A stretch of 64,000 nucleotides of DNA from Acidobacteriota bacterium (GTDB lineage Bacteria > Acidobacteriota > Terriglobia > Bryobacterales > Bryobacteraceae): NCBI GenBank assembly GCA_026393985.1, contig JAPKZB010000088.1, forward strand, positions 1 to 64,000, in the 5' to 3' direction. This document shows positions 4,631 through 31,455 of this stretch, in pieces (the first letter of the stretch is position 1; the number at the start of each line of letters is the position of its first letter). Both the position numbers and the translations under genes were made by a program. The notes beneath the pieces were generated by a model. The model saw only the letters and a list, made by a program, of their open reading frames with translations. It was not told the origin of the DNA and did no database searches.

Positions 4631-5768
4631 GCCCGTTTCCGTTCGCCGCTCCCGGCAACGGCTCGCCCAACAGGAACAACACCGCATGCTGCGAAGCCCG
4701 CCTATAAACGGGCTCCATGGCATCGAGTAGCGTCTTCTGCCCCTGCCAGAAAGGGAACGGACCCAGCCGCCGCGGCAGCGCCACCGAGATCGCCGGCGGC
4801 GCCACGTCGCCCATGGCATCCTCCGGCATGCGCACGGCGCCTTTCCAATAGATGTCCGGGTCGAGCTGCAGCCCCTGCTTGGGCTCCTCCACCGGCGCCA
4901 ACTCTTCGTCCTCCCGCTGCGCCTCGGCATCGAGCGCCTGCGGCAGGTTCTTCTCGATAATCGCCAGCAGCTTATCGCGCCGCATGCCGCGCATCGTGAA
5001 AAGCAGAAACGGATCGCGGTCGAACTCTTCGCCCAACAGCAGATACACGGCCGCCAGATGCTTACAAGGGTTCGCCGTATCTGGACACGTGCAGCCCGTC
5101 ACCAGGTCCTGTTCGTTCTTCGGGTAAAGCGACAGGCCCAGCTCTTCAAAAATCTCTTCAATATCGGCCGGCATCTCGCCGGCCAGCAGCGTCGCTGAAA
5201 ACACCGCCTGCTCGGCCAGCCGTGCGCCCACCCGCGTCCAATCCTCTTCCGGGATCGTGCCGATGTTGATGTCCACATCGTACGGCTTCGGCCGCGAACC
5301 CCGCACCCGCGCATGCACATGGCCTTCGTCAATGGCGATGGCCAGCACGTGGCCGCTTTTGGCGTAGTCCCGCCCCCGGTTGAGCCGCGAACCCATCTCG
5401 AAGCTTTCCAGCACCTCGATCCACCGCCGCGCCCACCAGTTCTCGCCAAAACGCGATCCCTTCGTCTGCGCCCGGATGCCCCCGCCTCCCGGCGCCCGGA
5501 AGCCACCCGCCCGCCGCTGCGGACCCCGCCGCCGATTCCGGTTGCCTCTCCCGTCCCGGTCGTTCCGGTCGTTCCGATCGTTCCGCCGCCCGTTGCCCTC
5601 CGCTCCCCGCGACTGCTGCAGGGGGGGAGCAGGGCCCGCGGCCGCCGGCGGCGCACTCGCCCCCTCCACAGCCGCCGCCGGCGCCCCGCGCCGCCGGTTA
5701 TTAAACTTCCGCCGGCCCCAAGATCCCCGGTTCCCGCCGTTGCCCCCGCCGCCTGGCCGCTTACTCAT
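4605..5768 (-). CDS. SWIM zinc-finger protein partnered with SNF2 helicase
   Basis: I chose the ATG at 5768 (387 residues). It overlaps the helicase stop by 8 bases (ATGAGTAA), which suggests translational coupling; an upstream in-frame start at 5783 is less likely. The first 120 residues are Gly/Arg/Asn-rich and low in complexity, probably disordered and nucleic-acid binding. A SWIM zinc site follows (GCTCPDTANPCKH: C-x-C...C-x-H) inside a helical region. SWIM-domain proteins are commonly encoded beside bacterial SNF2 helicases and are thought to bind DNA or partner proteins. The low-complexity N-terminus is unusually long. Confidence 0.85.
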   Translation of the reverse strand: MSKRPGGGGNGGNRGSWGRRKFNNRRRGAPAAAVEGASAPPAAAGPAPPLQQSRGAEGNGRRNDRNDRNDRDGRGNRNRRRGPQRRAGGFRAPGGGGIRAQTKGSRFGENWWARRWIEVLESFEMGSRLNRGRDYAKSGHVLAIAIDEGHVHARVRGSRPKPYDVDINIGTIPEEDWTRVGARLAEQAVFSATLLAGEMPADIEEIFEELGLSLYPKNEQDLVTGCTCPDTANPCKHLAAVYLLLGEEFDRDPFLLFTMRGMRRDKLLAIIEKNLPQALDAEAQREDEELAPVEEPKQGLQLDPDIYWKGAVRMPEDAMGDVAPPAISVALPRRLGPFPFWQGQKTLLDAMEPVYRRASQHAVLFLLGEPLPGAANGNGPNGGPNSA

Positions 5769-8700
5769 CCAGCGCCTCCGCACTCAACGCAAACACGTTC
5801 TTCAGCTCCTCGTTCGAAAGCTCCGTAATCCAGCCCTCGCCCGTGCCGATCACCTCGTTGACGATGCTCTTCTTGCTCTCGATCATCTCGTCAATCCGCT
5901 CTTCGAGCGTACCCACGCACAGGAACTTGTGTACCTGCACATTCCGCAGCTGCCCGATGCGAAACGCCCGGTCTGTCGCCTGGTCTTCCACCGCCGGGTT
6001 CCACCACCGGTCGTAGTGGAACACATGGTTCGCCCGCGTCAGGTTCAATCCCGTGCCCCCCGCCTTCAGCGACAGAATAAACACCCGCGGCCCGTTGGGC
6101 GATTTCTGAAACCGCTCCACCATCATCTCCCGCTGCCGCATCGAAGTGCCGCCATGCAGATAGAGAACCTCGTCCCCAAAACTATCCTGCAGATGCTTCT
6201 GCAGAATACTGCCCATCTCGGTAAACTGCGTGAACACCAGCGCCCGGTCGCCCGTCGTCAACACCTCGTCGACCATCTCGGTCAACCGCGTCAGCTTGCC
6301 GCTCCGCGCCACCACCGCCGACCCGTCGCCCAAAAAATGCGCCGGATGGTTGCAGACCTGCTTCAGCTTCGACAGCGTCGCCAGAATCGCCCCGCGCCGC
6401 GCCATGCCGTCGGCGAACTCGATCTTCGAGTGCGCGTCCTTGAGCACCTGCTGGTACATCTCCACCTGCTCGCGCGTCAGCGTGCAGTACACCTTGTTCT
6501 CGAACTTCTCCGGCAGGTCGGCGATAATCCGCGTATCGGTCTTCAACCGCCGTAGCAGGAACGGCGAGGTCAGCCGTTTCAGATGGTTGGCGACGTCGTT
6601 ATCCCGGTTGGTCTGAATCGGCAGGAAGAAGTTCCGGCGGAACTGCTCCCGCGTCCCCAGGAATCCGGGGTTCAAAAACTCCATCACGCTCCACAACTCG
6701 CCAACGTTGTTCTCGACGGGCGTACCCGTCAACGCAATCCTAAAATCGCTCACCAGCGCCCGCACCGACTTCGCCTGCCGCGTGTCCGGGTTCTTGATGT
6801 TCTGCGCTTCGTCAAGAATCGCCCCGCTCCAGGTCACCTGCTTGAAGTATTCCAGATCGCGCTGCAGAATGCCGTAGCTGGTAATCACCAGATGATACTT
6901 CTGCATCTGCCGCGTAAACTCGTCACCCTTCAGCCGGTTCACCCCGTGGTGCACCAGCACCTTCAACTGCGGCGTAAAACGCGCGGCTTCCTTGTGCCAG
7001 TTGCCCGCCACCGACGTCGGGCAGATCAACAGCGTGGGCATCGTCGTGCCCTCTTCTTTATCAAGCTGCAGCAGCGCCAGCGTCTGAATCGTCTTGCCGA
7101 GACCCATATCGTCGGCCAGGCACGCGCCCAGCCCCCACTTGCGCAGGAACTTCAGCCACGAAAAGCCGCGAATCTGGTACGGTCTCAGCGTCCCCTTGAA
7201 GCCCTTGGGCGGCTTCAACTCCTCAAACATCGTCCGCCCTTCCAACTGGTCGAGCAGGTCGCGGACCCATCCGGTCGCCACGACGCCCTCAATCGGCAGC
7301 TCGTGGTTCGACGGGTAATTGCCCAGCGACATTTGAATAATCTCGCGTACCGTCGCCGTGCCGCTCGCGTTCCGCCGCCAGAATTCGAGCGAGTAATCAA
7401 TCTCGTCCGGCGTTACGTGCGCCCACTGCCCGTGCACCTTCACGAGCGGCGAACGCAGCCGCTGCAGCCCGAGCAGCTCATCGCGCGTCGCCAGCTCCCC
7501 GGCCACGGCAATTCGCCAGTCGAAGTTCAAAATCCAGTTCAGCGACAGTCCGCCCTTGGGCGGCTTCGCCGGGCTCTCGACAATCGCCTTCACGCTTAGC
7601 CGCGCCCGCGTGCCATCACGGCTCCACCACCTCGGCAGCTCCACAGCGAAGCCGCCCTGCTCCAGCGCCACAGCCTTCTGGTTCAGGAACTCATAGGCGC
7701 CGTTGGTATCGACGTCAAATCCCGTCGGCACGCTCGCCCGCAACGAGCTCTCAATCCGCGGCACAATCGAAGTCGCCTGCGTCAGCGACGTCAGCAGAAA
7801 CTCGAGCGTCGGCTGCCGCGTCACCCCGGCCAACCGCTCGCCGGTGCCGATCTGTTCGGCCCGCAGCACGTTGTCCGGGTTGTCCACGCTCTGCACGAGA
7901 TATCGCACCGTCCACGCCGAACCCGTCTCAGTCGGCTCCTCGAGCCGAAAGCAAAGCCGGAAGGGCGCATCGGCCGTCAACGCCACCGGTCGGCGCCACT
8001 GCCGTACCTGTTTTGAAATCCGCTCGAGGATATCCGGGTAGCCCTCGACGAGCCCGTCCTCGGAAGCCAGCGCGTACAGCCACCGCTCGTGCGGACTCTT
8101 CCCCCGCGGCGGCTTCCCGCCGTTGTAGCTGCCCCGGATCAGGTCATCGAGCATCCACGAGACAAACGCGTCCAGCACGATCCGCGCCGGAGTCGCCGGC
8201 GCCGCTTTATCTTCAAATGTGATTGCCCGCGCCGAAGCCGGCATCGCCGCCGCCAGCGCCGCCAGCCGGTGCCCTTCGATACCTGGATAAACCGGCGTCC
8301 AACTCGCCGCAAACTCGCCGTCTACCTCGTCAAGGTCCGGCAGAAACTGCTGCCGGGCCACCAGACCCCCCGCAAAGCGCAGCACCGCCACCCAGAACTG
8401 CACATCCGGCGCCACCATCAGCCCCGGACGCAGAATGCGTTGACCAAACGTCGCGGCCAAAAAGTCCACGGTCTCTTTCGGTCCCAATTGCATCGAGGCA
8501 ATAGAGAACGGCGAGAGCGTTAAGCTCTCATAAACGGGATGCTCGGCGATCAATGCGCTCGATGCCACCGGCCCTTCGGGCGCGGCAGGCGCCCAGAGAA
8601 CCACTCGTTGCATCTGGGCCTTTGCCAATTCCCCGCAGTAGGGGAGGGAGGAAAGGATTTCGCGCAACAGTGCGGGCGGGGCTCCGTAAGGATAATCCGG

Positions 8701-8919: not shown

Positions 8920-10851
8920 GTGCTACGCCGCTCCCTCCTCCTTTGCACCGCCCTGCCCCTGCTCCTGAGCCAGAAAAAACTCAGTGCCCCCGGCGAAACG
9001 TATTTCCCCGCCAAAGTCATGCCCGCCCTCGAAAAAGCCGGCTGTCAGAACTGCCATGGCTCGAACGGCGTCGCCGCCGGCACCCGCTTCCGCCTCCCCG
9101 AAGAAGGCGCCAGCGCCGAAGAGCTCCAGCTCTTCGGCAAATCGCTCCACGTCCTCATCGACCGCGCCGATCTCTCAAAATCCCTCCTCCTCAACAAACC
9201 CACCCGCCGTGTCCCCCACGGCGGCGGCCTCAAAATCACCCCCGGCTCGCCCGAAGAGGCCACCCTCCGCACCTGGATCGACTACCTCGCCGCCAACACC
9301 AAACCCGACGACCGCTTCCTCCTCGGCCAGCGCAAGTTCGAAGCCCGCCCCGTCCTCCGGCGCCTCACCCACGCCCAGTACAACAACACCGTCCGCGACC
9401 TCCTCGGCGACGACAGCCGCGTCGCCGACCAGTTCCCCGCCGAAGACTTCGTCGGCGGCTATCGCAACCAGTTCCAGTCCCAATCCATCTCGCCCCTCCT
9501 CGCCGAAGCCTACAGCGCCGCCGCCGAAAAACTCGCCCGCTCCGCCTTCCGCGGCGGCGATACCCACGGCCTCATCCCCTGCAAAACCCGCGACGCCGCC
9601 TGCCGCCAGAAATTCCTCCGCACCTTCGGCGCCAAGGCCTTCCGCCGCCCTCTGCTCGAAACCGAACTCGCCCGCTACGAAAAACTCTTCCTCACGCAGA
9701 AAGACTTCCTCGCCGGCGCGCAGCTGACCCTCGAGGCCATGCTCCAGTCCCCGGCCTTCCTCATGCGCACGGAAAACGGCGCCGAACCCGCCTGGCGCCC
9801 CTACGAAACCGCCAGCCGCCTCTCCTACGCCCTGCTCAACACCATGCCCGACGCCGAACTCCTCCGCGCCGCGGCCCAGGGCGAACTCAACACCCGCCAG
9901 GCCGTCGAACAGCAGGCCCGCCGCCTCCTCGCCGACCCCCGCGCCAAAATCACCCTCGATGAGTTCGTCGCCGAATGGCTTCGTTTCGACCAACTCCTCG
10001 ACGCCGTCAAAGAGCGCGCCCAGTTCCCCATGTACTCGGCCGAACTCACCGTCGCCATGACCGAAGAGACCCGCCGCATGGTCGCCGACCTCGTCTGGCG
10101 CGACCAGGACTTCATGCAGTTGTTCGCCGCCGAACACAGCTTCGTCAACACCGCCCTCGCCCAGCTTTACAAACTGCCCGCCCCCGCTAAAGAGTACGAC
10201 CGCGTCCCCCTCCCCCCCGAAACCGGCCGCGGCGGCATCCTCGGCCACGCCATGTTCCTGGCCGCTACCTCCAAACCCGCCGACACCAGCGCCACCCAGC
10301 GCGGCCTCTTCGTCCGCGAACACTTCCTCTGCCAGGAGGTCCCCCAGCCTCCGCCCGGCGTCAACGCCAACCTGCCCAACCTCGACAAGGGCAAGCCCAT
10401 GACCAACCGCGAACGCCTAGCCATGCATCTGAACAACGAAAGCTGCGCCAGCTGCCACACCCTTGTCGACCCCATCGGCCTCGCCCTCGAAAAGTACGAT
10501 GCCATCGGCCAGTTCCGCAACAAGCAAAAACTCACCTTCCGCCCCGCCCGCCGCGAAGATGGCGACGTCGTCAACGTCGAACTCGACATCGACACCAACG
10601 GCTACGTGGCCGGCATTCCCAACTCCCGCTTCACCACCCCCCGCGAGCTTGGTAAAATTCTATCGGCTGCCCCACAATGCCAGCAGTGCGTGGCCAAGCA
10701 GCTGTTCCGCTACTATACGGGCCGTCATGAAAATGCGCGCGACGCCGTCGTTATCGATCGGGCCTTCGCCGATTTCCGCAGCTCCGGGTACCACTTCCGG
10801 GAGCTGATGGTCAGCTTATTGAAGTGGAGCGTCTTCCCCCCGGAGTCCTAA
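8920..10851 (+). CDS. Secreted cytochrome-like DUF1587/DUF1592/DUF1588/DUF1585 protein
   Basis: The start is GTG at 8920, which gives a signal peptide ([17 protein letters not shown]) and a 643-residue protein. A heme motif CQNCH appears near residue 45 in a planctomycete-cytochrome-like region. The domain order then fits the planctomycete/acidobacterial family: DUF1587, DUF1595/1592 ([15 protein letters not shown]), DUF1588 with a second heme motif CASCH followed by [16 protein letters not shown], and DUF1585 at the C-terminus. These proteins sit beside DUF1552 partners and are assumed to act outside the cytoplasm in polysaccharide or sulfated-glycan use, but the reaction is unknown. The partner gene starts 4 bases downstream. 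Confidence 0.88.
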
Positions 10852-10855
10852 ACCG

Positions 10856-12168
<1,313 letters not shown>

Positions 12169-12172
<4 letters not shown>

Positions 12173-21658: not shown

Positions 21659-23443
21659 CTACTCCTCCCCCCGGCCCAACGCCCGCCGCAGCGTCCGCAC
21701 GAGCAATTCCCGCGCCACCGGCTTGGTCAGCGAAGCAAACGCTCCCCGCTCCAGCGCCGACTCGTCCGCCGCCACCGACGTCACCAACACCGGAATATCC
21801 CGCGTCTCCTGCAGCTTCTTCAACCCCGCCAGCGCATCCCAGCCGCTGCCGTGCGGCAGGTAAAGGTCCAGCACAATCACGTCCGGATGCAGGTCGAGCG
21901 CCTTCACGAGGCTCTCCCGCACCGTCGCCGCCGCCACCAGCGCCATGCCCTCGGCCTCGAGATACTCCCGCAGCAGCGCCAGCGCCGAAGGGTCGTCCTC
22001 CAGCGCCAAAACGAGCGGCTGACTCCGCCGCGCCATCCCCGCCGCCAGCGGCAGCGTAAAGACGAAACGGCTGCCGCCCCCTTCGGCCTCTTCCATCCAG
22101 ATCCGCCCCCCCTGTCGCTCCACCAACCGCCGCGCAATCGCCAATCCCAAGCCCGTCCCCGCCGACCCCGGGCCCTGATAAAACGACTCGAAAATCCGTT
22201 CGCGCAACTCCCTCGGCACGCCCACCCCGGTATCCTCCACGCGAATCTCCCCAAACTCCCCGGCCACTCCGCCCTCCACCGCAACCCGCCCCCCCGAATT
22301 GGTGAACTTAATCGCATTCGTCAGTAGATTCAACAACACCTGCTTCGATCGCAGCCGGTCCCCCTCCAGCCGCAAATCCCGCTCCATTCGTGCGGTCAGC
22401 GCAATCTCCTTCGCCTCCGCCTGCGGCCGCACCATCGCCATGGCCTCTTCCATCCACTCCCGCGCGTCGAACTCCTCCACCCGCAGCTCCATCCGCCCGG
22501 CCTCAATCTTGCTCAGGTCCAGAATGTCGTTGATCAACGTCAGCAGGTGCTGCGAATCGCGCTGGATATGCGCGGCAAACCGCTTCTGCTTGTCGTTCAA
22601 CGGCCCTTCCAGCTCATCCGCCAACAGCTCCGCGAATCCGATGATCGTATGCAGTGGCGACCGCAGCTCATGGCTCATGCTCGCCAGAAAGTCGCTCTTG
22701 GCCTGGCTCGCCTGCTCGGCCCGCAGCCGCGCCTCTTCAATCGCCTCCTGAAACCGCCTCTGCGCGGAAACGTCCTGCGCCACCAGCAGCCGCGCCGGCC
22801 GGCCCAGATACGGCAAGTCATGCGATCGGACCTCGTAGTCGGCCTCCCACAACGGCGCTAGCCCCGCCACCCCCAGGGCCAGAAACTCCTCCCGGCTCAC
22901 CCGGAACGCCTGCAGCGCCTCCCGGTTCACGGCCAGCAGCGCCCCGGTCGCCGGGTCCTCCACCCACGACGCCAGCGGACACTCTTCAAACAACAGCCGG
23001 GCCTGCGCCTCGCTCTCCTGCATCGCCGCCAGCAGGTTCATCCGCTCGGAGACATCCCGCACCACCGCCGCCGTATGCACCGCCTCGCCCACCTGCAGCG
23101 GGCTCAGCATGATCTCCACCGGGAACTCTCGGCCATCCTTTCGTACCGCCTGAAAGTAAGATCCGCTGCCCATCGACCGTGTTACCGGGGCCGCACTATA
23201 TCCCAATCGCTTCTGTTCGTGACCGGCCCGCACCGCCGCCGGCGTCAGTATCTCAATCCGCTGCCCGATCAGCTCCTGCCGCGTGTAACCAAACATCCGC
23301 TCGCAGCTCCGGTTCACTAAAACGATCACCCCGCGGGCGTCCACTTCAATTACGGCATCCGGCGCGGCCTCAAGCAGCGCGGCTTCTTTACTGTTAGTCT
23401 CACGATCAGCAGGATTCAACAATTGCAATGATCTCCAGTTCAA
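21659..23443 (-). CDS. Cytosolic PAS-PAS hybrid histidine kinase
   Basis: The start is TTG at 23443, with a purine-rich GGGGA just upstream (594 residues). No membrane segment is visible. Domains in order: PAS 1 (about 20-130), a weaker PAS 2 (about 145-228), HisKA with phospho-acceptor His258 in SMSHELRSP, HATPase (N-box LLTNAIKFTN, G1 DTGVGVP, G2 GTGLGL) and a C-terminal receiver with LDLYLP Asp near residue 530. It would sense an intracellular signal, possibly redox or a small ligand. It shares its 5' region with the divergent sigma-54 regulator at 23473, a likely partner in addition to the downstream receiver. Confidence 0.92.
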   Translation of the reverse strand: MNWRSLQLLNPADRETNSKEAALLEAAPDAVIEVDARGVIVLVNRSCERMFGYTRQELIGQRIEILTPAAVRAGHEQKRLGYSAAPVTRSMGSGSYFQAVRKDGREFPVEIMLSPLQVGEAVHTAAVVRDVSERMNLLAAMQESEAQARLLFEECPLASWVEDPATGALLAVNREALQAFRVSREEFLALGVAGLAPLWEADYEVRSHDLPYLGRPARLLVAQDVSAQRRFQEAIEEARLRAEQASQAKSDFLASMSHELRSPLHTIIGFAELLADELEGPLNDKQKRFAAHIQRDSQHLLTLINDILDLSKIEAGRMELRVEEFDAREWMEEAMAMVRPQAEAKEIALTARMERDLRLEGDRLRSKQVLLNLLTNAIKFTNSGGRVAVEGGVAGEFGEIRVEDTGVGVPRELRERIFESFYQGPGSAGTGLGLAIARRLVERQGGRIWMEEAEGGGSRFVFTLPLAAGMARRSQPLVLALEDDPSALALLREYLEAEGMALVAAATVRESLVKALDLHPDVIVLDLYLPHGSGWDALAGLKKLQETRDIPVLVTSVAADESALERGAFASLTKPVARELLVRTLRRALGRGEE

Positions 23444-23472
23444 GTCCCCAGCAAACTAAGGGCCAGCGTACA

Positions 23473-24851
<1,379 letters not shown>

Positions 24852-24855
<4 letters not shown>

Positions 24856-26714
24856 CGGCCCAACCGCAGCCCAATCGTAATCTGTTGCACCCCAAACGCC
24901 TCATTGGCGTAGAACGCCTGCCCCAGCGACACCTGCCGCCACTCCCCCAATAGCTGCACCTGCTTCCGCACCGGCACCAGAAGGCGCGCCAGCGGCTGAT
25001 AGTACCGCGTCGGCCGCGACCCCGCCGACCGGAACAGGCTCCCGCCCACCGTCACCGACCCCCGGTTCTTCGGCCAGTTCCACGTCGCCGCCAGCGCCCC
25101 CGTATGGGCGTTATCCCGGTACAGGCTCCGCAGCGGCGCGTACCGTTCCGGTTCCAAAAACACCAGATCGTTCCATAGCGTCGACCGCGCATAGTCCGCC
25201 GTCACCGATACCGTCCGCCTGGTCCACTGCACCGAAGCCCCCGCCTGCTGCGCCGCAAACCGCAGGTTCACCCCCGGCGTCGGGTTCCCGTTCGCCGTCC
25301 GGTGGTAGTGCCCGCTCGCCTGCCAGCCGTCGGCCAGCCGATAGCGCGCCCGCACGCGCACCCGCTCGTAATTCTGCAGACTCGTCCGGAAGTACGTCCG
25401 GTCCCCGCGGCCCACCTCCGCGTTCGCGTTCACGGTCAGCCGAGCCGCTGGCCGCAGCACGAAACCAGCCAACCCCACGTGCCGGCGCAGCCTCCCCGCC
25501 TCCTGCGCCGGCCCCGTCGACAAGCTCCCGCGCCGCACCCGCGCATCGCCCCACAGGTACCGGTGCCCCCCCTGCAGCGTCAAAAACTTCGCGACGTCCA
25601 CCCAAGCCTGCACCTGCTGCTCGCTCTCGTTCCACACGAGACGATCCCCCTCGCTCCGCCCCGGCAGCGCTCTCTGGTCCAGCGTCGTCAACCCCGCCAG
25701 CGTCGCCGCGTTATGCATCCGCGTCGTCTGCCACGATTCCAGAATCCGCACCCGGCTCCACGGCCGCACCTCCACGCTTCCCGCCCCCGATGTTCGCGGC
25801 TGGTTGGCGTAGCCCGTCACGAGCGACTGCTGCCCGCTCACGAACCGCAGCGTCTCGAGCCACAGCAGCGTGCCCTGCGCGTTCTCGCTGAAGCGTACGT
25901 CGCTGTTCGGCTGCGAGTAGAAAAACTGCCCCGTGAAATCCACCCAGCGCCACGGCGACACCGTCACCTCCGCCGACGAGTACACGTTCTGCCCGGTTAC
26001 GGTATAGGCCTGCGTCGCGCGGTCGAGCGCCAGGCGCCGGCCGAAGTACGGCAGCAGCCGGTTGCCGGTATTGCGCTCCTCAATGCGCAGCGCCGTGTCG
26101 TCGTGAAAGCGTCCGCCGCCCTGTTCGAGTGTGATGCGCCACCGTTCGGCGTCGAAGTGCACCCCGCCCCGAAACTGCAGATAGCCGTAGTCGATCGCTG
26201 ACGCCGCCGGGTAGCTGTTCTCGTCCACCACAATCGGGCTCACCCCGAACCCGTTGCCCGACTGCCGGCCCAAGCTCAAAAACGGCTGCAGCCGCTTGCC
26301 CGGCCGCAGGTCGAGGTCCGCGTTCCACAGCCGCTGCCGCGTATCGAACGACCGCTGGCTAAAGGTATTCAACGGATTGGCGAACGAGGGCAGGGCATTG
26401 AAGTAGGCCATGTTGCGATAGCCGAACGTGAACCGGTACAGCCCCGCTTTGTCCATTGTCAGGTGCAGGGCGTTCATCGGGTCGCCCCACCCGGAGCCCG
26501 TCACCCGCAGCGCGTCCAGCCCCCGGCTCCCGGCCGGCGTCCAGGCCCCGGCAAACTGCAGAAGCCGCGGCCCCTCGGCCAGATTGTCCACGCTCCGGTA
26601 GCTCTTCCAGTCGCCCCGTGTCGAAGGCAGCACCCGGTAGCCCACCTCGGTGGTCACCTCCGGCGCCTGCCCCCAAACCACCATCGGAATCGCCAGCCAC
26701 AGCGCCCGTCTCAT
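24852..26714 (-). CDS. MtrB/PioB-like outer-membrane beta-barrel of an electron conduit
   Basis: I chose the ATG at 26714, which overlaps the decaheme stop as ATGA and gives a signal peptide (MRRALWLAIPMVVWGQA). An in-frame start at 26876 would add 54 Gly/Pro-rich residues from inside the neighbour gene. The 620-residue mature protein is a run of amphipathic beta-strands with many aromatic ends, finishing TIGLRLGR, and contains no cysteine. By position and layout it should be the barrel that sheathes the MtrA-like decaheme protein across the outer membrane. Similarity to MtrB/PioB is inferred from fold and context, since barrels diverge fast. It lacks the Shewanella-type N-terminal CxxC. Confidence 0.75.
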
Positions 26715-27607
26715 CGCAGAAAGTCCCGGTTGACGTGCGAGCCGTGGATCTTCGTATGGCACGACGTGCAGTTGCGGTAGAGCGGCAGCCGCAGGTCGTG
26801 CGTCCCCGGCGCTACCGCACCCAGCGTGCCCGTCCGGTTCCCCGGCGCCGGCAGGTTCGCGTGGCACTCGAGACACAGGTTCATCACCTCCGCCCGGTTC
26901 AACATCCGCGGGTTCGCCGACCCGTGCGGCTCGTGGCAGCTCCCGCAGCCCTCCAGCCGCATCGGCGCGTGTTCAAACGCAAACGGCCCCCGTTTGTCGG
27001 CGTGACAGTTCAGGCACCCCGGCTCGTGGTTCCGTGTCCGCGCCGTCCCCCGCAGCCCCGCCCGCTCGAGCGACCCGTGCGGGTTGTGGCAATCGACGCA
27101 CTCGACCGTACCCCGCGTGATGCGGTGCGCGTGGGGCCGCAGAAACTGCGCCACCATGTCACTATGGCAGCCGGCGCAGGTGCTTGCCGGCGCGGGCTTC
27201 TCCTGATGCACCCCGTGGCAGCTCCCGCAGCCCACCTGCCCCGCGCTGTGCGAGCCGTGCACCCGGCCCGCATGCGTCGCCTGGTTCTTGTGGCACCCCA
27301 GGCACGACGCGTCGGCCTCCTTCGGCGTTGCCTTGGCGTGGTTCAGGATGAACTTCGCCTCGGCCGCCTCCCCGTGCTTCTGCCCTGGCCCGTGGCAGGC
27401 CTCGCACGAGTAATCCTTCCAGCCGCGTCCGCCCTCGCGCTCCAGGGCTCCGTGCCGCGTCTTGGCGTACCCCTTGCCCTGCTCTTCATGACAAGCCACG
27501 CACGCCTCCGTGCCGGCGTAGCCCGCCCCCGTCCGGTCTCTCTGAGGAGGCGGCGCCGCGCCGACGCCAAAGGCCAGCGCGCCCAGCAGCAGCAAACGCT
27601 TCACCAT
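26711..27607 (-). CDS. Decaheme c-type cytochrome, MtrA/DmsE-like
   Basis: This 298-residue protein has a signal peptide (MVKRLLLLGALAFGVGAA) and ten CXXCH motifs: CVACH, CEACH, CLGCH, CGSCH, CAGCH, CVDCH, CLNCH, CGSCH, CLECH, CTSCH. The close, regular spacing and many extra His residues fit bis-His heme wires of the MtrA/DmsE/PioA family (MtrA is 333 residues with ten hemes). It should carry electrons from the periplasm through the barrel to the outside. GAGG lies about 6 nt before the ATG, and the gene starts 6 bases after the MtrC-like gene. Confidence 0.9.
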   Translation of the reverse strand: MVKRLLLLGALAFGVGAAPPPQRDRTGAGYAGTEACVACHEEQGKGYAKTRHGALEREGGRGWKDYSCEACHGPGQKHGEAAEAKFILNHAKATPKEADASCLGCHKNQATHAGRVHGSHSAGQVGCGSCHGVHQEKPAPASTCAGCHSDMVAQFLRPHAHRITRGTVECVDCHNPHGSLERAGLRGTARTRNHEPGCLNCHADKRGPFAFEHAPMRLEGCGSCHEPHGSANPRMLNRAEVMNLCLECHANLPAPGNRTGTLGAVAPGTHDLRLPLYRNCTSCHTKIHGSHVNRDFLR

Positions 27608-27613
27608 CCCGCC

Positions 27614-29635
27614 TCACCGCGCATGGGACTTCGCCACCGAAAACGCCGCGTTCGGCCCGTGACAAACGTTGCAGCTCTCGCCGAGCGGCGAAGTCGTCAG
27701 TTGCACGTGCGCCGCCGCGTCCTTTGAACTGTGGCACGACAGGCACGCCGCCCCCGCCGGACCCGGATTCGGCAACCACCCCCGCGGGTCCACCACATTC
27801 AGCAGATTCGGCGCCAGCGGCAGCCGCTCCGTGTTGTTCACATGGCACATGGCGCAGTTGCGCGCATCGGCCGGCAGCGCCACTTTGCTGTAGTCGTTGG
27901 CTGCCCCGCCAAAGCCGTAGATCACATAGGGCCGGCCCTGCGTCGCGCCCGTGTGCAGCCGGTGAATCATCGTCGAAAAGTTCACGCTCTCGGCCGGCAT
28001 CTGCGCCGGGGTCCGCCGCGCCGCGTCCGTCAGGTTCGGGTTGTGGCAATCCACGCAGTGCTCAATTTGATTCCGATTCCGCCCGTGCGCCTCGAGGTCG
28101 GCATGGCAGGCGTTGCACTTGGCCAAACTCACAATCGTCCGCCGCGGCTCGGCCGCCTTGCCCTCCACGCTGAAATACTTCGTCACGTTCAGCAGCGTGT
28201 CGCGCACCGTTACCGGCTGCCGCCCCGGCCCCTCGAACGTCACGTTCCGGTAACCTTCTACGGCAATCGAGTAGCTCCCCGTCGCCCCGGCCGGAATCGC
28301 CGGCGTGAACCGGTGCGTGGCCGTGCCGCCGGGGCTCGGCGGATCCGTCCGTCCACTCTCGGACCAGTAAGCGGCGTAGTCGACCGTCGGTCCCGCGAGC
28401 ACGAACGAAAGCGAGTTCAGCTCCCCCGGCGTCAGCAGCCTCCCTTCGCCATCCCGCAGCCGGTAGCTCACCGCCGGCTGCTGCCCGGCGTTCGTATCCC
28501 GGATCTCCAGAATCTCTATGGCAATCCCCTTCAGGTTCCGCGACTTCTCCGGCCGCGTGTGCGCGCCCTCAATCGACAGATCCCACTCCCGTTCCCCCGC
28601 CGGCCGGTGGCACTGCGCGCAGCGCGAATCGTCCACCTGCACCGGATGCCCCTTGCCCGCCGCGAAATCAATATCGTCGTGGCAAGATCCGCAGGCCGCC
28701 TGCGTCGGCCGATACATCGCCCGCGCCTGCGCCCCCGCGTTCGGCCCCTCCTGCACATGGCACGCCGCGCAGTTGCGGTTGTTCGCCGGAAAGCCCACGT
28801 GCGAATAATCCGTCTCCCGCTGCGCGTTCCCGATCAGCGAATACCTCCCGCCCGCCTGCACGCTCGGCAGCTCCCGGCCCATGTGAATCTTGTGCGTCAT
28901 CACGGTCATGTCCACCGTGTTGCCCGTGTCCGGATCCACCGTCTGCGGCGTGTGGCAGAGCACACACATCGCCATGCCCCTTCGCGCTCCCCCGTGCGCG
29001 GCAATCTCGGTGTGGCAACCGTTACAGCTCTCCGTCCGGATCACATCCCGCACCGTCGTCACCGCGCCCCCCGCCGGCACAAAGTGAAACACGGTGCTCG
29101 CATAGCTTACCCCCAGTTCAAACTCGTTCAGGTTGCGGCTCCCGTAGACGCCAATGGTATGCGTCGCCGTCCGGTCAAATCCGCCCGGCGCCTTCGTGCG
29201 GAAGGTGTAGCGGTATTCGCCATCAGCCAGCTTCGCAAAGGTCCCGCCCGAATCCGACGCGGCCTGCGTGGCCGATACCCCCGTCAACGGGCTCCGCTGC
29301 ACCCGCGTCGTGTACGCCGTGTAGTGCTCGCCCTCGGCCGGAATCGTCGCCGCCACCAGGCTCAATCCCACCGCCCCCGGCGTCACGCGCCCCTCCCGGT
29401 CGAGCCGCACCCCCATCGGATCGCTTACCCGTACCGTCGCCGTCATCGTTCCGTCGGCCGCAATCTCGGCCCCCAACACCCGCAGCTCCAGCCCCGGCCG
29501 CACAAAGTTCAGCGTTCGCTCGCTCGCGTAAAAAGCCTTCTGCTCCGGCGTAAATCCAAAGCGCCGCACCCCGCCGGCCAGGCAGCCCGCCGCCACCAGT
29601 CCCCCCACCATCCACACCCCGGCTCTGCGCTTCAT
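27614..29635 (-). CDS. OmcA/MtrC-family decaheme outer-membrane cytochrome
   Basis: I chose the ATG at 29635 (674 residues), which has a strong ribosome site (GGGAGGGTGAGG) and starts a lipoprotein-like signal ending VAAGC. The ten CXXCH motifs fall into two groups of five, at about residues 204-339 and 507-655. Each group is preceded by a beta-rich domain (about 25-200 and 365-505). This matches the MtrC/OmcA order of beta domain, pentaheme, beta domain, pentaheme, and the length matches MtrC (671). It should be the surface-exposed terminal reductase facing minerals or other acceptors. Confidence 0.93.
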   Translation of the reverse strand: MKRRAGVWMVGGLVAAGCLAGGVRRFGFTPEQKAFYASERTLNFVRPGLELRVLGAEIAADGTMTATVRVSDPMGVRLDREGRVTPGAVGLSLVAATIPAEGEHYTAYTTRVQRSPLTGVSATQAASDSGGTFAKLADGEYRYTFRTKAPGGFDRTATHTIGVYGSRNLNEFELGVSYASTVFHFVPAGGAVTTVRDVIRTESCNGCHTEIAAHGGARRGMAMCVLCHTPQTVDPDTGNTVDMTVMTHKIHMGRELPSVQAGGRYSLIGNAQRETDYSHVGFPANNRNCAACHVQEGPNAGAQARAMYRPTQAACGSCHDDIDFAAGKGHPVQVDDSRCAQCHRPAGEREWDLSIEGAHTRPEKSRNLKGIAIEILEIRDTNAGQQPAVSYRLRDGEGRLLTPGELNSLSFVLAGPTVDYAAYWSESGRTDPPSPGGTATHRFTPAIPAGATGSYSIAVEGYRNVTFEGPGRQPVTVRDTLLNVTKYFSVEGKAAEPRRTIVSLAKCNACHADLEAHGRNRNQIEHCVDCHNPNLTDAARRTPAQMPAESVNFSTMIHRLHTGATQGRPYVIYGFGGAANDYSKVALPADARNCAMCHVNNTERLPLAPNLLNVVDPRGWLPNPGPAGAACLSCHSSKDAAAHVQLTTSPLGESCNVCHGPNAAFSVAKSHAR

Positions 29636-29637
29636 CC

Positions 29638-30996
29638 TCACCCTCCCAACTCCCGCAAGGCCGCCAGGTTCTTCTCTTCCACCCCCCACACCTTGTGACA
29701 GCTCTCACAATCCTGCGTCATCGTCTTGCCCGACTTCGTCTTCAACTCTTCGTTATGGCAGCGGAAGCAACCCGGCGAATCCGTGTGCCCGTTGTGCTGT
29801 GGGTAGCTGCCCCAGGTCAACTTCATCTCCGGATACACGTTCTGCTGATACAACGCCAACAGCCGCTGCCCCGCCCGCTCAAGCTCGGTCCGGTGCAGCA
29901 CCATCGCATCCGGCGCGTTCTGCTTATAGTAAGCCAGCAGCGCCGCCGGAATCTGCTCCGCCGCCGCCTCCCGGCTCGGGTACGCCTTACCCAACACCGC
30001 CAGCGCCGCCCGCCGGAACCGCGGCACTCTCTGCGGCAACGCCCCGGCCGCCATCTCGCGGTCCACCGCCCGCTCCGCCGTCTCAAACGCATGCGCCGGA
30101 CGGTTGTGGCAGTCCAGGCAATCCATCTCCCGTTCAAAAGCCCCCGTCCCCGCGCCCCCATACTCATCGCCGTGCTCCACCCGCACCGCCACCATCGTCT
30201 TCCGCTGCCGGTCCGCCGCCCGGTAGACGATTCTTCTCCCCTTACCCAGGTGCGCCCCGTGAATTCGCCCCACCTTCATCACCAATGCCGTCTCCAGCCG
30301 TTCGCCTGCGTCATCGAACCGGCTCTGCCGCCAGAGCCGGTTGCCGTAATCATGCTCCCGGTTGTGGCAGTTCTCGCACGTCTCGGCCGACGTCTTCAGC
30401 GCATGCGGAGGCGACGGCACCGGCCGGCTGTACCGATTTGTCAACAGCAGAACCAACTGCCGCGTCCCGTTCCATTTCGCCGCAATCTTCGCCCCCGCGC
30501 CCTCGCCCACGTGGCAATCCACGCACCGCACCTGGGCGTGCGCTCCCCCCACCAGATACGCCGCATACTCCGGGCCCATCACCTGATGGCAAGCCGTCCC
30601 GCAAAAGTTCGTCGACTCCATATACCGCACCGTCCGGTAGCTCAGCGCCCCGCCCACCACCACGTTGAACCCCGTCGCCACCGCCAGAAAAACCACCAGC
30701 CGCTGCACCCGCCGGTTCCCCCACTCCACCCGCTCCGGCAAATGCAAATGGTGGTCCGGCGCCTCCCGCCTCCGCTGCAAAGCGATACCTAACGGCACCA
30801 ACCCCAGCCCCGCGAAAAACAGCACCGGCAGCGCCACAAACTGCAGAATTCCCAAATACCCCGACGCCTCACTCGCCCCCGTCAGAAAAATCCACAGCAC
30901 CACCGCCGACATCACCAGCCACAGCCCCACCCGGCTGATCCAATGATCCGTCAGGTAGAAAACCGGCAAAATCCAGCGACGCGTGAACCGTCCCAT
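29638..30996 (-). CDS. Inner-membrane hexaheme cytochrome, NapC/NirT-type quinol dehydrogenase
   Basis: This 452-residue protein has three predicted membrane helices (about 20-40, 48-73, 98-118) followed by a periplasmic heme domain. Heme motifs are CGTACH at 132 (CX3CH, one residue longer than usual), CVDCH 158, CENCH 207, CLDCH 293, CFRCH 410 and CESCH 430. The first motif is followed by QVM, as in the NapC/NrfH group where a nearby Met can be a ligand. It should oxidise menaquinol and pass electrons to the periplasm, as CymA or ImcH do. A GGAG site lies upstream, in the 7-base gap after the monoheme gene. Confidence 0.88.
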   Translation of the reverse strand: MGRFTRRWILPVFYLTDHWISRVGLWLVMSAVVLWIFLTGASEASGYLGILQFVALPVLFFAGLGLVPLGIALQRRREAPDHHLHLPERVEWGNRRVQRLVVFLAVATGFNVVVGGALSYRTVRYMESTNFCGTACHQVMGPEYAAYLVGGAHAQVRCVDCHVGEGAGAKIAAKWNGTRQLVLLLTNRYSRPVPSPPHALKTSAETCENCHNREHDYGNRLWRQSRFDDAGERLETALVMKVGRIHGAHLGKGRRIVYRAADRQRKTMVAVRVEHGDEYGGAGTGAFEREMDCLDCHNRPAHAFETAERAVDREMAAGALPQRVPRFRRAALAVLGKAYPSREAAAEQIPAALLAYYKQNAPDAMVLHRTELERAGQRLLALYQQNVYPEMKLTWGSYPQHNGHTDSPGCFRCHNEELKTKSGKTMTQDCESCHKVWGVEEKNLAALRELGG

Positions 30997-31003
30997 CGAC
31001 CGC

Positions 31004-31318
31004 CTACTCCTTCAACGTCCGCAGAAACGCCACCAGATTCGCCGCCTCCGCCTCCGCCAATGCGGCCCCCTTCATCTTGCCCACACCCTCCACCGACTCT
31101 TTCCGCAACTGCCCGTCCGGCTTCGCCTGCACCTCCTTCGAACCGAGATGCCGCATCTCCACCTTCAGCATCTTCGCAATCGCGCCATTGGCCGCCCCGT
31201 CCACCCCGTGACACCGCTTGCACGACCGGTCGTAAGCCGCCCTACCCGCCCCGGCGTCCGCCCCGAACGCACCGCCGCAACACAATCCAAAACTCACCAA
31301 GCCGATTAGAAATCTCAT
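31004..31318 (-). CDS. Small monoheme cytochrome c
   Basis: This 104-residue protein has a signal peptide (MRFLIGLVSFGLCCGGAFGA) and one heme motif, CKRCH, near residue 33. A Met in VGKMKG could be the distal ligand. It is a periplasmic class I cytochrome c and the first gene of the conduit operon, so it probably shuttles electrons between the inner-membrane cytochrome and the MtrA-like protein or another oxidase. A sigma-54-type promoter ends 15 bases before its ATG. Confidence 0.88.
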   Translation of the reverse strand: MRFLIGLVSFGLCCGGAFGADAGAGRAAYDRSCKRCHGVDGAANGAIAKMLKVEMRHLGSKEVQAKPDGQLRKESVEGVGKMKGAALAEAEAANLVAFLRTLKE

Positions 31319-31333
31319 AAGCAGGGAATTGAC

Positions 31334-31349
31334 TGCAATCCAATGCCCA
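31334..31349 (-). promoter_or_regulatory. Sigma-54-type promoter of the electron-conduit operon
   Basis: Read on the minus strand the sequence is TGGGCATTGGATTGCA. It has the invariant GG and GC separated by exactly 10 bases, TGG at -24 and a perfect TTGCA at -12. The predicted start would fall about 5 nt before the ATG at 31318. Upstream there are two ATATCC boxes (31365-31370 within the palindrome GGATATCC, and 31396-31401) 31 bases apart, which might be activator sites. The activator gene at 23473-24855 supports the call; no experiment is available. Confidence 0.6.
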
Positions 31350-31441
31350 CCAGCAACTCACCGGATATCCACGCCAAAGCCGCCTCCCCTGCGCCATATC
31401 CCCCACCCCCGGTGCGGCATCTGCCCCGCGCCCCCCGGCCG

Positions 31442-31447
31442 TATACT
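31442..31447 (+). promoter_or_regulatory. Candidate -10 element, leaderless type (D-aminoacylase gene)
   Basis: TATACT, one base from the consensus -10, lies 8 nt before the ATG at 31456. No ribosome binding site fits between them. Confidence 0.4.
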
Positions 31448-31455
31448 ACAGTCCA

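Follow-up and report, generated by a model that had tools for sequence, protein, structure and literature searches.

Five genes on the minus strand form one unit between positions 24852 and 31318 of the window (the whole stretch of 64,000 nucleotides that was analysed, from a member of the Bryobacteraceae), at the place and on the strand given in the original prediction. The unit and the two neighboring genes considered here are as follows:

31004..31318, minus strand: cyc1, monoheme class I cytochrome c of 104 aa, candidate periplasmic relay (PF00034)
29638..30996, minus strand: imcH-like inner-membrane hexaheme cytochrome of 452 aa, candidate menaquinol oxidase (helices, heme motifs)
27614..29635, minus strand: mtrC-like outer-membrane decaheme cytochrome of 673 aa, with two pentaheme blocks (TIGR03507)
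26711..27607, minus strand: mtrA/dmsE-like decaheme cytochrome of 298 aa, candidate wire within the barrel (TIGR03508)
24852..26714, minus strand: mtrB-like outer-membrane barrel of 620 aa (predicted fold)
23428..24855, plus strand: sigma-54-type response regulator, convergent with the operon, possible regulator (PF00158, PF00072, PF02954)
21659..23443, minus strand: hybrid PAS histidine kinase, possible partner of the regulator (PF00512, PF02518, PF00072, PAS)

Only 7 nt separate the stop of cyc1 (31004) from the start of imcH (30996), 2 nt the imcH TGA (29640-29638) from the mtrC ATG (29635), and 6 nt the end of mtrC (27614) from the start of mtrA (27607), while the mtrA TGA and the barrel ATG overlap in the sequence ATGA (26714-26711). 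Because of this overlap, the barrel gene was assigned to 24852-26714 (620 aa) and not to the longest frame, of 674 aa. Comparison of the five genes with those of three relatives of the same genus gave dN/dS values of 0.06-0.20 (the cyc1 copy of locus L032 is cut at a contig end); the operon is a tight unit under purifying selection. In gene order, the products contain 1, 6, 10, 10 and 0 heme motifs of the CXXCH type, the six of the imcH-like product being one CX3CH plus five CX2CH. Beyond the operon, no stop-to-stop frame of more than 60 aa in the window had more than two such motifs, indicating that the counts in the operon are not due to chance. The five genes, their tight spacing or overlap and the heme counts of the four cytochromes were thus confirmed as first predicted. 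Elsewhere in the window, at 8920-12172 of the plus strand, a gene whose product has two CXXCH motifs and PSD/PSCyt domains (DUF1592 and DUF1588 among them) is followed by one for a DUF1552 protein.

A homolog of the regulator gene ends beside the barrel gene in seven of the 12 relatives that share the layout of the window; it was not seen in three (L041, L042 and L046), and the sequences of L036 and L044 end too near the barrel gene. The histidine kinase gene is kept in L032-L035. This regulator and kinase may control the operon. The pattern used for sigma-54 promoters had no match upstream of cyc1, in 31319-31455, and over the window it gave 36 matches versus 57 expected by chance.

Assignment of the five products

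The product of cyc1 matches PF00034 with 35 bits (cut-off, 21.3), and the gene leads the unit in each of the 12 relatives whose fetched loci share the layout, including the truncated copy of L032. The second product had been predicted to be a six-heme, membrane-anchored cytochrome of the NapC/NirT kind; the six hemes and the membrane anchorage stand, but the architecture is that of ImcH, and from its sequence we classify the protein as ImcH-type. It contains three hydropathic segments (residues 23-41, 53-71 and 97-115), with the CX3CH motif (CGTACH) at residue 132 plus five CX2CH. The available parts of Zhong and Shi (2018; PMC6295460) describe for the ImcH family the same three N-terminal helices and a CX3CH followed by five to nine CX2CH, as well as a third helix and first hemes resembling those of NapC/NirT/NrfH. 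In line with this resemblance, residues 102-214 match PF03264 (29 bits; cut-off, 24.1) and residues 119-213 match the NrfH model with 58.6 bits, under its cut-off of 134. The structure model is of low confidence (pLDDT 67.5), with helices at 19-41, 46-77 and 95-126 and a structural match to NrfH that is not significant (E 0.55). The protein is 36% identical to the homolog from Geothrix fermentans (L153), and among the matches listed its nearest named record is from Bryobacteraceae bacterium CoA2 C42 (90% identity). The operon gene is the single copy of imcH in the source genome. We also considered a CymA/NapC identity, which was ruled out by the three helices, the CX3CH motif and the six hemes; CymA is a tetraheme protein with one N-terminal helix.

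The mtrC-like product scored 463 bits with the curated MtrC-type model TIGR03507 (cut-off, 209), matched PF22113 in two stretches and retrieved MtrF from the PDB (E 2.6e-34). The predicted OmcA/MtrC-like decaheme identity therefore holds, but not its description as a lipoprotein. The lipobox-like motif in the window protein is LVAAGC, with one Cys, and this Cys is missing in all 12 relatives with the same layout, which rules out the lipoprotein as a conserved trait; a canonical lipobox occurs in one of 63 MtrC frames of the family (those longer than 520 aa, including that of L036). Likewise, the protein has a single free Cys, so the CX8C switch that the accessible text of PMC9973256 gives as a feature of Shewanella MtrC cannot exist in it. 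There were no free Cys pairs in the 11 full-length proteins from same-layout relatives, and a close pair is present in 11 of the 62 family frames longer than 620 aa. Two genes of same-layout relatives, mtrC of L036 (539 + 256 aa) and imcH of L043 (379 + 104 aa), are split in two frames, either by real disruption or by assembly error.

The assignment of the fourth product as an MtrA/DmsE-like decaheme was borne out by the curated model TIGR03508 (218 bits; cut-off, 192) and by a PDB match to chain A of 6r2q (E 6.4e-35). The molecule name attached to 6r2q_A in the sequence match is cystathionine beta-synthase, whereas the fold search titles 6r2q as an Mtr complex.

Curated sequence models did not recover the barrel, which scored 24 bits with TIGR03509 (cut-off, 240) and 19.9 bits with PF11854 (cut-off, 23) and had no sequence match in the PDB at E 10; among the 50 barrels of an alignment, these two MtrB models matched only 6 and 10, respectively, at E 0.001. 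A structure model built from these 50 sequences (pLDDT 88.5, pTM 0.78) contains 28 strand elements, and its top Foldseek match was chain B of 6r2q (TM 0.70/0.67, E 7.6e-13); query TM did not exceed 0.52 in the remaining 49 rows listed, which are TonB-dependent receptors and similar transporters. By its predicted fold, then, the operon barrel is an MtrB, although it misses the cut-offs of the sequence models. It is also similar to the barrels of other layouts in the 60 loci fetched (phmmer, 239-505 bits). The absence of cysteine pointed out in the original prediction is correct for the window barrel but is not a family trait, as 49 homologs carry 0-4 Cys.

Distribution, layouts and phylogeny

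Of 200 genomes sampled from the family, 149 (65 of 76 genera) have an MtrC homolog and 152 (68 of 76 genera) an ImcH homolog. Both occur in 142 genomes, mtrC only in seven, imcH only in ten and neither in 41 (Fisher p 7e-26, taking genomes as independent with no correction for relatedness); in 12 listed genomes of the same genus, both were present in eight and neither in four. Linkage was evaluated in 109 listed genomes of the 142 carrying both genes: in 35 of them the two genes are no more than 10 kb apart, and in 18 imcH is the same-strand gene immediately preceding mtrC, at 600 nt or less. Of these 18, 13 (counting the window) have the layout of the window and five have others.

Among 60 fetched regions, which were picked from the better-scoring MtrC rows so that layout counts are not frequencies, 12 show the layout of the window (L032-L036, L039-L044 and L046) and in another 18 a four-heme gene comes after mtrC-mtrA-barrel, the arrangement of group 5 of Baker (2022). 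Rows with the window layout form one clade in the trees of ImcH (13 rows, SH-aLRT 100), MtrC (12 rows, SH-aLRT 98) and the barrel (13 rows, SH-aLRT 99). The MtrA tree implies two changes for this layout, although a single change is also compatible with it. The ImcH tree comprised 89 rows, was built with a quick method and left out L067, L092-L096, L104, L117 and L167-L171; of these, L092-L096 are the same records as G135, G175, G111, G183 and G013 and were counted once. Locus L071, with the order imcH-cyc1-mtrC-mtrA-barrel-tetraheme, has its ImcH in a different supported group, which suggests that linkage of imcH to mtr genes probably arose more than once.

Other arrangements were evident among the 80 named loci listed in the ImcH scan, out of at least 581 confirmed stretches. 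None of these 80 loci is from Geobacter. The gene precedes mtrA in L115, L147 and L149, with a barrel gene in L115 and L149; comes after a four-heme gene in L127, L137 and L138; and is the last gene of an mtrA-barrel-cyc1-imcH array, with mtrC not in view, in L128, L132, L134, L142, L155 and L171. The barrels of these six loci, from other acidobacteria, are larger (778-982 aa) and weakly similar, and there are one or two cyc1-like genes. In 15 of the 80 loci, the gene preceding imcH on its strand encodes a nine-heme protein; that of L051 contains a cytochrome b561-type domain, which makes it CbcL-like. Next to its mtrA, barrel and mtrC genes, L067 (genome G064; 5465-8125, minus strand) encodes a further variant, an 887-aa protein with 18 heme motifs whose ImcH-like portion continues in frame into another multiheme portion; a single polypeptide may here act as both quinol oxidase and relay.

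A conduit of this kind is already known from the Bryobacterales. The accessible sections of Baker (2022; PMC8805035) report MtrCAB in five hits from Acidobacteriia, including Bryobacterales, in which mtrB is followed by a gene for a tetraheme cytochrome and the surroundings lack an inner-membrane quinone oxidoreductase. The window shares with this group 5 the taxonomic order, the adjacency of mtrC, mtrA and barrel, and a homologous barrel; unlike it, imcH and cyc1 precede mtrC, with imcH 2 nt upstream, and no tetraheme gene follows the barrel gene, the next gene being the convergent regulator. The ImcH proteins surveyed by Zhong and Shi (2018; PMC6295460) had, in the available excerpts, no adjoining mtrAB or mtoAB, in contrast with the single unit of imcH and mtrCAB found here. 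In the portions at hand, Eichorst (2018; PMC5900883) lists mtrA/mtrB candidates in Bryobacter and Solibacter with no complete operon, and Lipson (2013; PMC3669403) regards acidobacterial decahemes as possible Fe reducers. A similar case comes from karst metagenome-assembled genomes (2026; PMC13264449), whose group-2 clusters, according to the part available, likewise pair a decaheme with a porin of 25-36 strands, with a cytochrome resembling ImcH or NapC/NirT in six of the eight. Although that work is near to it, we recognized no description of an imcH-mtrCAB operon from Acidobacteria in the open-licence literature and, as far as our searches show, the union of the conduit with imcH in one operon is little or not described.

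The view of the lineage as one of aerobic heterotrophs, taken in the original prediction, is dated for the Bryobacterales, given the MtrCAB published in the sections of PMC8805035 cited above and the reduction of Fe(III) by Paludibaculum fermentans P105T, which belongs to this order (PMC8407742). Genome G145, which we infer to be that of P. fermentans, does not have the exact layout of the window but has mtrCAB in the group-5 layout (L068), with imcH 270 kb away. The proposal that absence from iron-reducing relatives would count against the prediction therefore applies to the exact layout and not to the conduit.

Electron path and alternative readings

The source genome (5.9-Mb assembly, 96 contigs, 97.9% complete) contains two VitK2_biosynth matches, corresponding to the futalosine route to menaquinone, as well as CcmF and the type II secretin GspD (above cut-off). 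It has one match to the terminal oxidase COX1, indicating that the organism also uses oxygen. Cytochrome bd and ResB were not found in this genome by searches that were positive in 10 and 5 of 14 control genomes, respectively, nor was a CbcL-like protein, in a search that had no positive control there; a full group-5 tetraheme was not found either, the best of the partial matches covering 60 of 373 alignment positions. The assembly contains a second pair of decaheme MtrA and barrel genes on contig C87 (6742-7980 and 7725-9941, plus strand; L183 in G000), with no adjoining MtrC or ImcH and a barrel lacking Pfam matches at E 0.01, and four scattered genes (L185, L186, L187 and L189) whose products, 307-495 aa long, carry seven heme motifs apiece.

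All the gene types for a path of the Mtr type from quinol to the outer membrane are present in this one acidobacterial unit, as predicted, with ImcH as the starter. We consider it likely that the operon is a self-contained system for outward extracellular electron transfer; going by gene content, it probably exports electrons from menaquinol. The ImcH-like cytochrome would oxidize menaquinol in the inner membrane and its electrons would probably pass via the monoheme cytochrome to the MtrA-like decaheme, seated in the MtrB-like barrel, and would go on from there, through the outer membrane, to the MtrC-like decaheme. The latter, presumably exposed at the surface, would reduce an outside acceptor, be it a mineral of Fe(III) or Mn(IV), humic substances, an electrode or a second cell; respiration of minerals, humics or electrodes by the source organism, as originally suggested, may thus be envisaged. 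Several stretches of the group-5 tetraheme match class I cytochrome c domains, so cyc1 may stand in for that protein. The unit resembles Shewanella MtrCAB in combining a pair of decahemes with a barrel whose predicted fold is that of MtrB, whereas its quinol enzyme is ImcH-like instead of the tetraheme CymA, and the MtrC-like protein, unlike that of Shewanella, has no conserved lipobox or lipid anchor and no free Cys pair.

The outward reading is supported by the curated matches of both decahemes, the MtrB-like fold, the ImcH architecture and the tight, selected unit; by the layout shared among 12 of the 60 regions, with one clade each for ImcH, MtrC and the barrel, and the co-occurrence and linkage of imcH and mtrC; and by the genes for menaquinone, CcmF and the secretin in the genome and the presence of mtrCAB and imcH in G145. 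Against it are the want of a conserved MtrC lipid anchor, the scores of the barrel under the curated cut-offs, the group-5 layout in G145, the low-confidence ImcH model and the presence of COX1. This oxidase, together with the second MtrA-barrel pair without MtrC, would also fit an inward conduit of the Pio/Mto type, with Fe(II), a cathode or partner cells as the donor of electrons that reach the quinone or the terminal oxidase via MtrCAB, and MtrA-barrel pairs do serve Fe(II) oxidation elsewhere (available text of PMC4245776). However, that same text indicates that Fe(II)-oxidizing mtr clusters often lack mtrC, which is present here, and the excerpts of Zhong and Shi (2018; PMC6295460) place ImcH homologs in Fe(III) reducers only and implicate ImcH only in quinol oxidation; we regard inward transfer as rather unlikely.

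It is quite improbable, in our judgment, that the MtrC-like protein, for want of a lipid anchor, is not fixed at the surface but released or periplasmic, and that MtrAB alone is the wire, even though the rarity of the lipobox in the family and the loss of the LVAAGC Cys in the same-layout relatives agree with it and MtrAB is able to conduct electrons in the absence of MtrC (PMC4245776, in part). The gene mtrC is kept beside mtrA and the barrel gene across the family, and its product could be held by docking or exported by type II secretion, for which the genome encodes the secretin. Finally, the mtrA-like protein falls in an NCBIfam model named DmsE family, as would be expected if the operon fed a dedicated extracellular reductase in the way that DmsEF feeds DmsAB. 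Yet the neighboring genes scanned include no reductase partner, and this model (TIGR03508), despite its name, includes MtrA too, making such a role highly improbable.

On the outward reading, we tentatively propose that the operon is a stable, co-inherited cassette that connects an ImcH-type quinol oxidase directly to MtrCAB by way of one small cytochrome, with an outer decaheme held only by docking, with no lipid anchor or thiol switch, and that ImcH-Mtr coupling arose more than once in the Acidobacteriota. ImcH works in the high-potential range and, if the proposal is true, its coupling to Mtr would suit these bacteria to high-potential external acceptors. The operon, with imcH and mtrCAB in one unit common to several genera, breaks three statements in the published sections considered here: that a tetraheme gene lies downstream, that no quinone enzyme is near mtrCAB and that no mtrAB lies beside imcH. 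Spanning the whole path with five genes, it is also handy for transfer into a laboratory host. As homologs of ImcH and of MtrC are each present in about three quarters of the 200 genomes, many members of the family may be capable of extracellular electron transfer, which would then be usual and not an exception.
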